Assembly: GCF_013911965.1 (NCBI RefSeq) | Contig: NZ_JACESE010000002.1 | Coordinates: 186,001-250,000, forward strand | Length of the DNA stretch: 64,000 nucleotides | Source: Phenylobacterium sp. | GTDB taxonomy: Bacteria; Pseudomonadota; Alphaproteobacteria; Caulobacterales; Caulobacteraceae | Direction: 5' to 3' | Part shown: piece after piece, positions 33,496 to 60,074 of the stretch | How positions within the stretch are numbered: position 1 is the first letter of the stretch | Layout: every line of letters begins with the position of its first letter | Translations under genes and position numbers: made by a program | The notes under the pieces: model-generated | What the model was told of the DNA's origin: nothing | The model's database searches: none | What the model saw: the letters and a program-made list of their open reading frames with translations, nothing else

Positions 33496-34766
33496 ACGGC
33501 GCCGCTCCGCCCTTCGGCCGCTGGGAGCGCATGCTCGCCGGCCGCTATCTCCGCGCAAAGCGCAGCCAGGGCGGGGTGGCGCTCATCTCCATCATCTCCT
33601 TCGTCGGCATCATGCTGGCGGTGGCGGTTCTGATCATCGTCATGTCGGTGATGAACGGCTTCCGGACGGAGCTGCTGGACCGCACCCTGGGCTTCAACGG
33701 CCACATCTTCGTCTCGGGCGGTTCGCTCGTGGAGCCCGATGTGCAGCGCCTGGCGGGCGAGATCGCCGGCCTGCCGGGCGTCACCCAGGCCGCGCCCCTG
33801 GTCGAGGCCCAGGCCATGGCGCTCGGCCAGGGCCAGATCAGCGGCGTGGTGGTGCGCGGCATTTCCGCCGCCGATCTGCGTGCGACGCAGATCGTCTCCG
33901 GCAACATCGTCCGCGGCTCGCTCGAGGGCTTCGGCGAGGGCGAGTACGGCGGCGACCTGATCGTCATCGGCGAGCGTCTGGCCCAGACTCTCGGCGTCCA
34001 GCCGGGCGACCCGCTCACCCTCATCTCCCCCAGCGGCGGGGCGACGGCCTTCGGCTTCACGCCCCAGCGCAAGACCTACACGGTCGCCGCCACCTTCACC
34101 GTGGGCATGAGCGAATACGACCAGCTCTTCATCTACATGCCGCTCGCCCAGGCCCAGCTCTTCTTCGGCCGGGAGGGCGTGGTCGACGTGGTCGAGATCC
34201 GGGTGGCCGACGCCGACCGGGCCATGGAGATGAAGTCTCAGATCGCCGAACTGGCGGGCCCCACCGCCATCGTCACCGACTGGACCCAGCGCAACGCCAG
34301 CTTCTGGAACGCGCTCAAGGTCGAACGCAGCGTCATGCGGCTGATCCTGATGCTGATCGTCGCCATCGCGGCCATGAACATCATCTCCGGCCTGGTCATG
34401 CTGGTGAAGAACAAGGGCCGCGACATCGCCATCCTCCGCACCATGGGGGCGGGCAGGGGCGCCATCCTGCGGGTCTTCTTCATGGCCGGCGCCTCCGTCG
34501 GCGCGCTCGGCACGCTGGTCGGCCTGGTGCTGGGGGTGCTCTTCTGCCTCTTCATCGGCCCCATCCAGAGCTTCGTGGAATGGGTGACCGGCGCCGAGGT
34601 GTTCAGCTCCGACATCTACTATCTGGCCCACATCCCGGCCCAGGTGGACTGGCGGGAAGTGCTGATCATCGTCGCCTGGGCGCTCGGCGTCTCCTTCGTG
34701 GCCACCCTGCCGCCGGCCCTGCGGGCCTCGCGCCTCGATCCGGTGGAGGCCCTTCGCTATGAGTGA
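33492..34766 (+). CDS. lolC: Lipoprotein-releasing ABC transporter permease (LolC/E)
   Basis: 424-residue inner-membrane component of the Lol system, which extracts outer-membrane lipoproteins and hands them to LolA. One helix is at about 28-52 ([32 protein letters not shown]), a large periplasmic domain follows, then three helices near 280-305, 325-350 and 390-410. Some alphaproteobacteria use one LolC/E-type protein as a homodimer, and only one gene is here. The start GTG 33492 overlaps proS; the 3' end overlaps lolD by 8 bases. Confidence 0.94.
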
Positions 34767-35451
34767 GGTTCCGGTCCTCTCCGTCCGCGGCCTCGAACGG
34801 ACCTATGTCACCGGCGACCGCAGCCTGACCGTGCTGCGCGGGGTCGATCTCGACGTCTATCCTGGCGAGATCGTCGGACTGATCGGTCCGTCTGGATCGG
34901 GCAAGTCGTCCCTGCTGCACGCTGCGGGCCTGCTCGAACGGCCGAACGCCGGGGACATCGCCATCGAGGGACGCGACTGCACGCGGATGAGCGAGCGGGC
35001 GCGCACCCGGGTGCGGCTCGGCTCCATCGGCTTCGTCTACCAGTTCCACCATCTGCTGGCGGAGTTCACGGCTCTGGACAATGTGGCCCTGCCGCAGATG
35101 ATCGCCGGCGTCGCGCAAGGCCCTGCGCGCGAGCGGGCGGGGCGGTTGCTGAGCCAGCTCGGTCTCGCCGATCGGGTGGAGCACCAGCCGGCCCAGATGT
35201 CCGGCGGCGAGCAGCAGCGGGTGGCCATCGCCCGCGCCCTGGCCAACGCCCCGCGCCTGCTGCTGGCCGACGAGCCCACCGGCAATCTCGATCCCACGAC
35301 CTCTTCGGAGGTGTTCGCCAGCCTCTACCAGCTGGTGCGCGAGACCGGCGTGGCGGCCGTCATCGCCACCCACAATTTCGAACTCGCCCGGCACATGGAC
35401 CGGGTTCTGGCGCTGAAGGACGGGCATCTGGAGCCCCAGTCGGTCTTCTGA
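34759..35451 (+). CDS. lolD: Lipoprotein-releasing system ATP-binding protein LolD
   Basis: 230-residue ABC ATPase of the MacB/LolD type. Walker A is GPSGSGKS at 43-50, the signature is [15 protein letters not shown], and Walker B is [12 protein letters not shown]. The Q-loop region contains [19 protein letters not shown], a LolD hallmark. It overlaps lolC by 8 bases, so the two subunits are co-translated. Confidence 0.97.
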
Positions 35452-35464
35452 GGCTCCAGCCGGT

Positions 35465-35893
35465 TCAGGCTTCCGGAAGGAAGCGCGTGCCTCCGTCGGG
35501 ATCGATCTCCGCGCCCGGATTGTGCGCCACTTCCCAGACGTGCCCGTCGGGGTCTGCGAAATAGCCCGAATAGCCCCCCCAGAAGACGGCTTCCGGCGGC
35601 TTCAGCGCCTTGGCCCCCGCGGCGAGCGCTTCGGCGAAGATGGCGTCCACCTCGGCGCGGTCGCGGCCGTTGATGGCGATGGTGACGCCGCTGAAGGTTC
35701 CGTCGATCGGACGTTTGGCGTCCTCGGCCAGGGCCTCGCGGCCGAACAGGCCCAGCACCATTCCGGGCAACTGATAGAAGCAGACCGCGTCCATGGCGCT
35801 CACCGGCTTCCACCCCAGCCCCGCCTCATAGAAGCGGCGGGAGCGGGGCAGGTCGGCGACGCCGAGGGTGATCAGACTGATGCGTTGGTCCAT
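35465..35893 (-). CDS. VOC / glyoxalase-like protein
   Basis: 142-residue vicinal-oxygen-chelate domain protein (LITLGVADLPRSRRFYEAGLGW, then FFADPDGHVWEVAHNP). It is related to the glyoxalase/bleomycin-resistance group; substrate and metal role are unknown. The start at 35893 is chosen over an upstream ATG at 35932 because AAGGAG sits just ahead. It is divergent from sidA, and the SOS-type operator lies between them, so it may be influenced by LexA. Confidence 0.85.
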   Translation of the reverse strand: MDQRISLITLGVADLPRSRRFYEAGLGWKPVSAMDAVCFYQLPGMVLGLFGREALAEDAKRPIDGTFSGVTIAINGRDRAEVDAIFAEALAAGAKALKPPEAVFWGGYSGYFADPDGHVWEVAHNPGAEIDPDGGTRFLPEA

Positions 35894-35916: not shown

Positions 35917-35942
35917 TTGACGATGAGAACAAAACCAGAATA
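35917..35942 (+). promoter_or_regulatory. Putative promoter of sidA
   Basis: TTGACG (35917-35922), a 14-base spacer and an AT-rich AGAATA (35937-35942). The LexA sites overlap and follow the -10 region, as in a repressed SOS promoter. Confidence 0.5.
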
Positions 35943-35958
35943 AGAACATTTATCGAAC
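35927..35958 (+). promoter_or_regulatory. LexA (SOS) boxes upstream of sidA
   Basis: A perfect alphaproteobacterial SOS box, GAAC-ATTTATC-GAAC, is at 35944-35958. A near-match, GAAC-AAAACCA-GAAT, is immediately before it at 35927-35941. Two tandem sites suggest tight LexA repression of the plus-strand transcript. The lexA gene in this same window has the same kind of box. Confidence 0.88.
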
Positions 35959-35988
35959 ATCCACAAGTGGGCCACAGGGGAGTTGGTG

Positions 35989-36081
35989 ATGGTCATTCGT
36001 CTGGCGCGGGAATCGCTGGCATTTGCTTCGGTGGCGGGCTTCGTTTGGATGGTCTGCCAGGTCGCCTACCTGGTGGGCTGA
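35989..36081 (+). CDS. sidA: SOS-induced inhibitor of cell division SidA
   Basis: 30-residue single-pass membrane peptide: a basic start MVIRLARES followed by one hydrophobic helix (LAFASVAGFVWMVCQVAYLVG). A very strong ribosome-binding site AGGGGAG (35976-35982) is 6 bases before the ATG. In Caulobacter crescentus the 29-residue SidA is SOS-induced, binds FtsW and stops division after DNA damage; its gene is directly upstream of dnaE. The size, topology, position and LexA boxes all match here. I assign it by these features, not by a full alignment. dnaE starts 24 bases downstream without a terminator. Confidence 0.88.
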   Translation: MVIRLARESLAFASVAGFVWMVCQVAYLVG

Positions 36082-36105
36082 CGGCGCGGCGGTGCGGAGG
36101 TGAGG

Positions 36106-39549
<3,444 letters not shown>

Positions 39550-57153: not shown

Positions 57154-59337
57154 ATGAAGGTGATGCGCCGCGGCGCGATCGCCGGGCTTTGGGGCGGGTC
57201 CCTTAGCACGGGCCTGGCTCGGGCTCCTAGCCTCGCCGACCTGATGGCCGCGCTCGCAGGACAGTTCGCCGCCAACGCCGACCGCTGGAGCCTTTGGACG
57301 CCGGTGGCCTTCGGGCTGGGCTGCGCGGCCTATTTCGCCCTGCCGGGGGAGCCTCTGCCGTTCGTCGCCTGGAGCGCGGCGGGCCTCGCGGCGGCCGCCT
57401 TCTGGGCGAGCCGCCGCTGGGGCCGACGGCGGATCGTCGCCGTCGCCCTGATCCTGATCGCCTTCGGCCTGGCGGGCTTCGCCGTCGCAAAGCTGCGGTC
57501 GCTGGCGGTTGGAACACCCGTCGCGCCCGCCCTGGAGGGACCCGTCGGACTCAGCGGCTACGTCCTCGACGTCGCCAATCCGGGCGAGGGCGGTCCGCGC
57601 ATGCTGGTGGCGCCGACGCAGGTCGAGGGGCTGCCGCCGGACGCGACGCCCGCCCGTGTTCGGCTCACCCTGCGCGAATCCCCGCCGCCGCCGGGCTCGG
57701 CCGTACGGGTGCTGACGCTGCTCAACCCGCCGCCGCCGCCCGCCAGCCCAGGCAGCTACGACTTCGCCCGCGACGCCTATTTCGAGAGCATCGGCGGGGT
57801 CGGCTTCGTCCTGAAGGGGCCCGAGCCCGCCGAAGCGACACAGGTCCCCCTTCGCCTGCGCTGGACCATGGCCATCAACGCCATGCGCTGGAACCTGGCT
57901 CAGAGGATCGTCCGCTCGATGGGGCGGGAAACCGGCGGTCTCGCCGCGGCCATGGTGACCGGCCATCAGGCCTTCATCCCGCGCGAGCAGATCGAGGACA
58001 TGCGCGCCTCGGGTCTGGCGCACATCATCTCCATCTCGGGACTCCACATGGCCATCGTCGGCGGCTTCGTCTTCGCCGCGGCGCGTCTGGGCGTGGCCGC
58101 CTGGCCCTGGCTCGCCCTGAGGATGTCGAGCAAGAAGGCCGCCGCCCTGGCCGGCCTCCTGGCCGTCGGCGGCTATCTGGTCGTCTCGGGCGCGCCGGCC
58201 CCGGCGGAGCGGGCGGCGATCACCGCCTCGGTGGCCTTCGCGGCTGTCCTGTTCGACCGGCGGGCCATCAGCCTGCACACCCTGGCCATCGCCGCCCTGG
58301 CGGTGCTCGTCCTGCAGCCCGAGGCGGTGACGGAACCGGGATTCCAGATGTCCTTCTCGGCAACGGCGGCGCTGGTGGCCTTGGCCGAGGCGTGGCCGCG
58401 GAGCGTGCGGGAGATCAATGCGCCCTGGCCGATCCGCGCCGCCCAGGGGGCGCTCGGCTGGCTCGCCGCGAGCCTGGCGGCCAGCTTCGTGGCCGGCCTC
58501 GCCACCGGCCCCTTCGCGCTCCAGCACTTCAACCGCATGGCCACCTTCGGCCTTCTGGCCAACCTGGCCGCCGCGCCGGTCTCCTCCTTCCTGATGATGC
58601 CGGCCCTCGCCGTGGGGGCGGTCCTGACCCCGTTCGGGCTGGGAGATGCGCCGCTTGCCGTGGCTGGATGGGGCATCGCCGGCATCACCGGGATCGCTGC
58701 GACCGCGGCCCATGCCCCAGGCGCGGCCCTGCTGGTCGGAAGCGCGCCGGCCTGGGCCCTGCCCATGGCCTTTCTCGGGATTCTCTGGGTCTGCCTCTGG
58801 CGCGGCCCGGTGCGGTGGGCGGGCCTGCCCTTCGCCCTCGCCGTCAGCCTGGCGCCGAGGGGCGAGCCGCCGGCTCTGTTCGTGGCCGCCGACGGGGCCC
58901 AGGTCGCCGTCCGCTCGGGCGATGCGGCCATCCTGTTGCGGCCGGAGGTCAAACGCTTCGCGGCCGAACGCTGGGCGCAGCGCCGGGGCCTGGCGGCCGA
59001 GGAGGACGCCGCGCGCCGCGACGCCGCTTATGTGTGCGACCGCTGGTCCTGCCGGCCGGGCGCTGCGGCCCCTGTGTCCGTCGCGGCGGTCTGGAGTCGC
59101 AAGACCCCGGGAGCAGAGGACCTGGCGAGGCTCTGCGCCTCCGCCGAGGTGGTGATCGTGCGCGCGCCCCTGCAGAGCCCCGCCTGCCCGGGAGCGATCC
59201 TGCTGTCGGGCGCAGATTTCGCCGCCGGCGGGTCCGCCGAGCTCTATCGCGGCGCCGAGGGCTGGAGGCTCCAGTGGGCGCAGGACCTGCGCGGCCGCCG
59301 GCCCTGGACCTGGGGCGCTAGTGGTAGCGGCGAATGA
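57154..59337 (+). CDS. comEC: ComEC/Rec2-family competence membrane protein
   Basis: 727-residue inner-membrane DNA-uptake channel homologue. An N-terminal DUF4131-type segment is followed by the competence domain, with [42 protein letters not shown] and many helices. The C-terminal 150 residues are too short and lack the HxHxDH metal motif of the metallo-beta-lactamase domain found in Bacillus ComEC. The start may be ATG 57154 or 57163. It overlaps the lexA 3' end on the other strand by 20 bases. Confidence 0.9.
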
Positions 59338-60019
59338 GGCCGACCAGCCGACCCTGGACCGCCACCTGGTCGGGTCCGAAGATGCGGGTCTCGTAGGCCG
59401 GGTTGGCGGCCTCGAGCGCGATCGAGGCGCCCTTGCGGCGGAGGCGCTTCAGCGTGGCCTCCTCGCCCATGACCAGCGCCACGACGATCTCGCCGGAATT
59501 GGCCGCGTCCGTCTTGCGGATCACCACATAGTCGCCGTCGAGGATGCCGGCGTTGATCATCGAGTCGCCCTGAACCTCCAGGACGAAGTGCTCGCCGGCG
59601 CCCAGCATCGTTTCGGGCACATGCAGGCGGTCGCGCTCCTGCTGGATAGCCTCGATCGGGGTGCCGGCGGCGATGCGGCCGAGCACCGGCAGCTCCCGCG
59701 TGTCGTTGGCCGCGGCCGGCAGGCCCGGCGCAGGGGCGTCGGAGGCCTCGACCAGCTGCGGACGGAAGGCCTGCCGCCCCTTGGGCGGGGCTGCGGTCGT
59801 GGCCTGCTGCGGCAGTTTCACCACCTCGAGCGCGCGGGCCCTGTGGGGCAGGCGGCGAAGAAAGCCGCGCTCCTCGAGCGCGGTGATCAGCCGGTGGATC
59901 CCGGACTTGGACGCGAGGTCCAGCGCCTCCTTCATCTCGTCGAAGGAGGGCGAGACGCCGGTCTCCTTGATGCGCTCATGGATGAACATGAGCAGTTCGT
60001 GCTGCTTGCGGGTGAGCAT
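59318..60019 (-). CDS. lexA: LexA repressor
   Basis: 233-residue SOS repressor. The N-terminal winged helix ([33 protein letters not shown]) is followed by a variable linker and the autoprotease. The self-cleavage site is A118-G119 (GRIAAGTP); the catalytic dyad is S153 (GDSMINAG) and K191 (ATLKRL). The gene has its own SOS box and therefore autoregulates. sidA in this window is a predicted target. Confidence 0.98.
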
Positions 60020-60059: not shown

Positions 60060-60074
60060 GTTCTCTAGGTGTTC
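60060..60074 (-). promoter_or_regulatory. LexA (SOS) box of lexA
   Basis: On the minus strand GAAC-ACCTAGA-GAAC, an exact match to the alphaproteobacterial GAAC-N7-GAAC box. It covers the lexA -10 region. Confidence 0.92.

Follow-up and report, generated by a model that had tools for sequence, protein, structure and literature searches.

Does a short frame that lies directly before dnaE in a Phenylobacterium genome encode the division inhibitor SidA, and how far beyond Caulobacter does this arrangement extend? The division inhibitors that the SOS response induces are generally presented as specific to their lineages and unrelated to one another. We know of no described SOS-induced division inhibitor in the alphaproteobacteria outside Caulobacter, and our literature search found no work that extends SidA beyond that genus. 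We examined a stretch of 64,000 nucleotides from contig NZ_JACESE010000002.1 (hereafter the window), its genome and its relatives. Taken alone, the window gene is one more sidA; the main interest lies in the wider family.

The frame before dnaE matches the SidA family

An earlier note, made from the letters of the window, had described a short frame behind a perfect AGGGGAG that encodes one membrane helix, follows a perfect SOS box and a second near-match, and is directly followed by dnaE, as in the layout of SidA; we find each of these points confirmed. The frame (Table 1) starts with the ATG at 35989, six bases past AGGGGAG, and ends with the TGA at 36079-36081. Its translation, MVIRLARESLAFASVAGFVWMVCQVAYLVG, has 30 residues and a single hydrophobic stretch, with a Kyte-Doolittle 17-residue maximum of 1.89. 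Because this peptide matches the NCBIfam equivalog model NF033228.1 (div_inhib_SidA) with 65.8 bits, over a cut-off of 35 and across model positions 2-29 of 29, we assign the ORF by its sequence to sidA, as an unexceptional member of an established family; no Pfam model covers the peptide. Among 80 distinct sequences, the ORF varies mainly at the third base of its codons (mean minor frequency 0.170, 0.092 and 0.328 at positions 1, 2 and 3). The note had also supposed that the gene is missing from the public record, which is doubtful since NCBI annotation includes a model made for this very family of 29 residues. An alternative start at the TTG at 35983, in frame with sidA, is possible but poorly placed. 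A phage or plasmid origin was considered and rejected, as tblastn with the window peptide returned nothing from phages or plasmids at E ≤ 10.

Table 1. Features of the window around sidA and at lexA
Feature	Coordinates	Strand	Basis
lolD-like ABC transporter ATPase, upstream neighbour	34759-35451	+	best NCBIfam model TIGR02211, 257 bits, below cut-off 307.75
glyoxalase-superfamily gene	35465-35893	-	PF00903, 59.3 bits, cut-off 20.6
TTGACG, probable -35 element	35917-35922	+	sequence reading; promoter role inferred
second LexA box, near-match GAACAAAACCAGAAT, one mismatch to GAAC-N7-GAAC	35927-35941	+	sequence and conservation
GAATAA, possible -10 element overlapping both boxes	35938-35943	+	sequence and alignment of relatives; inferred
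exact LexA box GAACATTTATCGAAC, GAAC-N7-GAAC	35944-35958	+	pattern search; conserved in relatives
ribosome-binding site AGGGGAG	35976-35982	+	sequence reading
sidA ORF, 30 codons and TGA	35989-36081	+	basic N-terminal end, then one hydrophobic helix
dnaE, DNA polymerase III alpha subunit	36106-39549	+	NF004226, 1466 bits, cut-off 1002
lexA (extent of model match)	59324-60019	-	TIGR00498, 184.1 bits (G000:C12:245324-246019)
exact LexA box 40 nt before lexA ATG	60060-60074	-	pattern search

The ATG of dnaE at 36106 lies 24 bases past the sidA stop, with an in-frame GTG at 36100 as a possible start, and this short gap suggests that the two genes probably form one co-transcribed operon. The named DnaE sequences closest to that of the window are from Phenylobacterium metagenome genomes (86% and 85% identical over 300 residues), which places the window in the Caulobacteraceae and probably in Phenylobacterium. 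Upstream of the sidA region are lolCE- and lolD-like genes. The glyoxalase-superfamily gene is oriented away from the LexA boxes, with its start ∼35 nt from them, and as far as known stands outside the sidA unit. The same genome has a single LexA match, an exact LexA box 104 nt before the recA ATG, and an FtsW gene with a model match over cut-off.

Two LexA boxes overlap the predicted sidA promoter

The LexA box of Caulobacter is reported as GTTC-N7-GTTC (PMC9578287), and the window has an exact box and a near-match in front of sidA. An exact box alone is weak evidence in 64 kb, being near chance: the window holds two, the mean of shuffled sequences is 1.17, and two were reached in 29 of 100 shuffles. 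Similarly, the genome has 102 exact boxes, most of which are therefore expected by chance. The box at sidA gains weight, first, because the other box in the window is the one before lexA and, second, because the upstream stretches of relatives keep boxes far above controls. An exact box is present in 67 of 82 distinct upstream stretches, and a box with at most one mismatch in all 82. The corresponding counts are 0 and 2 for 81 control stretches taken further upstream, 0 and 7 for 82 stretches within dnaE, and on average 1.0 and 12.3 in shuffles. The near-match is likewise kept, with the pattern GAAC-R-AA-N4-GAA-W present in 77 of the 82 stretches, and a TTG is found 6-9 nt before it in 76 of 82 distinct relatives. 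The arrangement suggests that the operator copies overlie the -35/-10 region and that the GAAT half-site doubles as part of the -10 element, an overlap that would account for GAAT in place of GAAC in the near-match.

We also noted the hexamer TCCACA, the core of the DnaA box, on either strand in 55 of 82 sidA upstream stretches, as against 2 of 81 and 2 of 82 in the two control sets. When up to one mismatch is allowed, TTATCCACA is present in 20 of 82, compared to 1.0 in shuffles, and the window carries ACATCCACA within 35944-35989. Part of this TCCACA-type signal may be ribosome-site sequence, but DnaA might also act on the unit formed by sidA and dnaE.

SidA is conserved in the genus and across the window's family

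Conservation of the frame in sister genomes, on which the earlier note had staked its reading, is observed: a peptide search finds sidA in 33 of the 36 genomes of the genus, the window's own included, and the three misses are 73-89% complete. When NF033228 was compared with 398 genomes of the order, 73 matched at E ≤ 0.001 (43 over cut-off), all of them in the window's own family; Caulobacter vibrioides was the sole match among 14 named control genomes. We then examined 100 sequences, namely the window and 99 loci (39 fetched by dnaE and 60 by SidA, with the window counted three times in all), and found a SidA-like frame in 97, with dnaE next in 97 of 97. The three without such a frame are a DnaE paralogue and two contigs whose first bases fall within dnaE or shortly before it. 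Two genomes have two SidA matches each, G026 (C28 and C49, with equal scores) and G063 (C17 and C3, one strong and one weak), which could be either assembly duplicates or real second copies.

In genus g12, which is of Brevundimonas type, a SidA-like ORF follows a LexA box in all 11 loci examined, and one of these peptides is identical to that of Brevundimonas aveniformis (L092). In five of these 11 genomes NF033228 gave no match at E ≤ 0.001 and in five more the match was below cut-off; the reach of the model could be widened.

The layout recurs in most Caulobacterales families sampled

Four of the five Caulobacterales families that we sampled show the layout of LexA box, one-helix peptide of ∼30 residues and dnaE. 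We examined 60 of 95 genomes from the other families of the order, using hydropathy and length limits that were set after an initial look at the data. A box and a hydrophobic ORF of 22-36 residues precede dnaE in 9 of 15 regions from family f3, 16 of 18 from f4, 18 of 18 from f5 and 0 of 9 from f2 (shuffle expectations 1.0, 0.1, 0.3 and 0). Both f4 misses do have the ORF, just under the hydropathy limit. Neither box nor ORF is found before dnaE in any of the nine f2 genomes (L166-L170, L219-L222), and sidA seems to have been lost in this family. Among five further loci, box and ORF are both present at L160, L165 and L161, in the last with lower hydropathy (1.42), and L163 and L164 have neither before dnaE. 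With the final limits, an ORF of 22-45 residues that starts within 120 nt of the box, 43 of 48 box-bearing regions qualify, compared to 2.0 in shuffles and 1 with the stretch reverse-complemented; none of the 32 other exact boxes of the window's genome meets these limits.

The remaining f3 genomes are of two kinds: three of the 15 have no box, and three (L175, L192 and L194) have a LexA box ∼50-120 nt upstream of the dnaE match but lack a small ORF in the interval, such that dnaE stands alone behind the box. Because these three keep the box close to dnaE without the ORF, we infer that LexA control of dnaE may itself be worth keeping, which suggests that sidA and dnaE form one SOS unit.

The layout is found in scattered families of the class

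To describe the layout outside Caulobacterales, we searched 190 genomes of the class, of which 181 have a dnaE match, and examined 108 of the 178 outside the order. A LexA box is found within 500 nt before dnaE in only 14 of these 108 regions, but 13 of those 14 hold the ORF, where 0.5 is expected by shuffling and 0 with the sequence reverse-complemented. The layout is thus present in scattered alphaproteobacterial families; another 11 regions have a hydrophobic small ORF with no box before it. In a further survey of three orders, for which the limits were fixed beforehand, 29 loci were obtained, 26 of them new, with a box in 23 and the ORF in 22 of the 26. The other new loci are L354, whose ORF has lower hydropathy, L342, which has no box, and two that are cut by contig ends.

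Position was left out of account in a blind search, in which a 25-row profile was run over 385 class genomes with no use of dnaE. Each of the best 27 matches (E ≤ 0.0024), those of the window and of G567 among them, has an exact LexA box in front of it and dnaE immediately after it. Thirteen of these 27 genomes gave no row to the profile, although the peptide of one of the 13 is identical to a row, and six are from f14, f95 and f174, families whose survey genomes gave no row. Ranks 28 and 29 are not near dnaE, and rank 30 is near dnaE but has no box.

A SidA-like frame precedes dnaE in Sinorhizobium

One of six named dnaE records taken from a plasmid collection has the layout: in Sinorhizobium meliloti Ak57 (CP090106.1), two exact LexA boxes accompany a small frame of 28 codons that encodes the one-helix peptide MADFVRDLAAFASMSLFIVSISVIALGL. 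Neither box nor ORF was found before dnaE in the other five, from Azospirillum, Paroceanicella, Ruegeria, Methylobacterium and Acetobacter. Searching with the Ak57 peptide returned three more Sinorhizobium records and Shinella (57% identical); exact LexA boxes are present at both further loci inspected, K101 and Shinella. The gene table, which is incomplete, shows no feature under the Sinorhizobium and Shinella matches.

A ribosome-profiling study of S. meliloti small proteins reports sORF25, in the 5′-UTR of dnaE1, as translated and noteworthy, and possibly a uORF (PMC10117765); ‘SOS’, ‘lexA’ and ‘SidA’ each have 0 occurrences in its main text. By its position before dnaE1, sORF25 is probably the dnaE-linked SidA-like gene of S. 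meliloti. We also observed that a hypothetical protein of Rhizobium beringeri pRlX6 (WP_326894604.1, 57856-57984; L376) shares 46% identity with the S. meliloti peptide (E 4). This protein does not adjoin dnaE, and is perhaps a mobile SidA-like gene or a chance match.

The distant peptides are conserved as proteins and resemble SidA by profile

Most groups tested show coding-type conservation. Codon differences are given as synonymous/non-synonymous, with the non-synonymous number expected at random in brackets; pair counts are not independent. We obtained 93/4 (66.6) for g3, 40/16 (44.2) for g24, 80/47 (109.0) for g5, 50/72 (107.2) for g10, 6/1 (5.5) for g23, 10/4 (10.1) for g6, 10/9 (16.7) for g29 and 13/11 (20.1) for the g100 pair; g26 has no coding signal, with 5/13 (13.4). 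For 19 distinct g100 sequences, a set that leaves out ORFs L338 and L358, which had no end-to-end alignment, the values are 1768/2026 (3341), and base differences by codon position are 1251, 1161 and 3257.

NF033228 gave no match at E ≤ 10 to the distant dnaE-linked peptides (overlapping sets of 10, 13 and 14), and for this reason we call these SidA-like rather than SidA. Profiles nevertheless point to a relationship with SidA beyond shared hydrophobicity. With an HMM built from 13 class peptides outside the order, all 68 SidA sequences exceed the 95% level of 766 null helix segments, and 63 of the 68 also exceed the maximum of these segments. The Sinorhizobium and Shinella peptides score above all 766 nulls with the class HMM; with the SidA HMM, 10 and 3 of the 766 nulls score as high. 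In the reverse comparison, with an HMM of SidA only, 14 of 16 f4 peptides, 4 of 13 class peptides and 0 of 16 f5 peptides exceed the 95% level of the nulls. Profile-profile scores are 32.8 for SidA versus class, 33.6 for SidA versus f4/f5 and 39.6 for class versus f4/f5; these three values were equalled or exceeded in 1, 0 and 0 of 150 column shuffles and in none of 100 pseudo-families each, and helix pseudo-families score at most 9.9.

By analogy with Caulobacter SidA, the distant members may block division through FtsW. They might instead be SOS-induced peptides with another target, either the membrane potential or a different part of the divisome. DinQ of E. coli provides the precedent, as an SOS-controlled single-helix peptide with a different effect (PMC3567139), but the profile relatedness to SidA and the common plan of a short N-terminus plus helix argue for the SidA-like role, and we regard another target as unlikely. 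We give still less credence to the idea that the distant peptides have no kinship with SidA and that one-helix peptides evolved under LexA on several occasions. Their low identity to SidA, the composition that one-helix peptides share, and the failure of the SidA-only HMM with f5 would all fit that idea; it does not readily explain how the class HMM could recover most SidA sequences above every null, why the profile-profile scores are almost unreached by shuffles and pseudo-families, or why the same box and the same position before dnaE recur.

SidA as a probable LexA-controlled division brake

We are highly confident that the window ORF encodes a SidA that would act as a LexA-controlled brake on division, with dnaE probably co-transcribed. 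What we observed ourselves is that the ORF matches the family, that boxes stand before it and are conserved, that the frame varies as coding sequence does, that boxes also precede lexA and recA, and that the genome has an FtsW gene; LexA control, the membrane location and the FtsW target are carried over from published work on the Caulobacter protein. In that organism SidA has 29 residues, is located in the inner membrane and interacts with FtsW, and ftsW and ftsI mutations suppress its action (PMC4211646). In undamaged cells of this strain, LexA bound to both boxes would cover the core promoter and keep sidA shut. DNA damage would lead to cleavage of LexA and to early transcription of sidA, the product of which is predicted to insert as a single helix in the inner membrane and, by analogy, to hold the late division complex FtsW/FtsI/FtsN inactive, such that cells would not divide over damaged chromosomes. 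If dnaE is transcribed along with sidA, the same signal would raise the replicative polymerase too.

If the frame were a leader peptide, its translation would control dnaE and the peptide itself would be inert. The short distance to dnaE on the same strand, and the reading of sORF25 as a possible uORF (PMC10117765), are what one would expect of such a leader. However, amino acids are kept beyond random expectation while third positions drift; the gap to dnaE is highly variable, with the ORF ending up to 337 nt before the dnaE match; and Caulobacter SidA works as a separate gene product, the deletion of which abolishes filamentation of a lexA mutant (PMC12700426). On these three grounds we reject a leader as the sole role, which we consider very improbable, and a double role of SidA and uORF is possible. 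That a chance ORF merely follows a chance box has negligible probability: frames as short as this one are frequent in six-frame listings, and finding two boxes in 64 kb is close to what chance predicts, but the NF033228 match and the third-position bias of its variation rule this out, as do the recurrence of the frame in the genus, the constant presence of dnaE after it and the conserved boxes.

Relationship to known systems

Other small inhibitors resemble SidA by action. YneA of Bacillus subtilis and SosA of Staphylococcus aureus are, like SidA, SOS-induced membrane division inhibitors, and YneA acts on FtsW (PMC13396833, PMC6851548); we liken these to SidA by action only. DidA of Caulobacter is also a small membrane inhibitor of FtsW/I/N after DNA damage (PMC4211646), but differs from SidA in that it is not under LexA control and binds FtsN. 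sORF25 is alike in being a translated small ORF before the replicative dnaE (PMC10117765).

We consider it likely that the LexA-controlled SidA-like microprotein before dnaE is an old alphaproteobacterial SOS checkpoint wired to the polymerase gene, kept in much of Caulobacterales, in Sinorhizobium, Shinella and others and lost elsewhere, and that sORF25 is the missing SOS division inhibitor of S. meliloti. Such genes would be invisible to annotation because they are ∼30 residues long and drift fast. Position, operator and sequence together allow a 30-residue protein to be traced across a class, and the dnaE-linked, LexA-controlled family provides a ready list of candidates, one of which has probably already been seen translated in S. 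meliloti.

The closest counterpart of the window gene is SidA of Caulobacter crescentus (NF033228), which is similar in length (29 residues, PMC4211646), in sequence, in its LexA boxes and in having dnaE next. The order of box, sidA and dnaE that the earlier note had attributed to Caulobacter is indeed found in C. vibrioides DSM 9893 (L070), and we take it from this locus rather than from the literature. The window peptide is 66% identical to DSM 9893 SidA (alignment A1) and has one extra residue near the N-terminus. The boxes differ in order and in spacing: in DSM 9893 the exact box comes first, followed by two near-matches, whereas in the window the near-match comes first.
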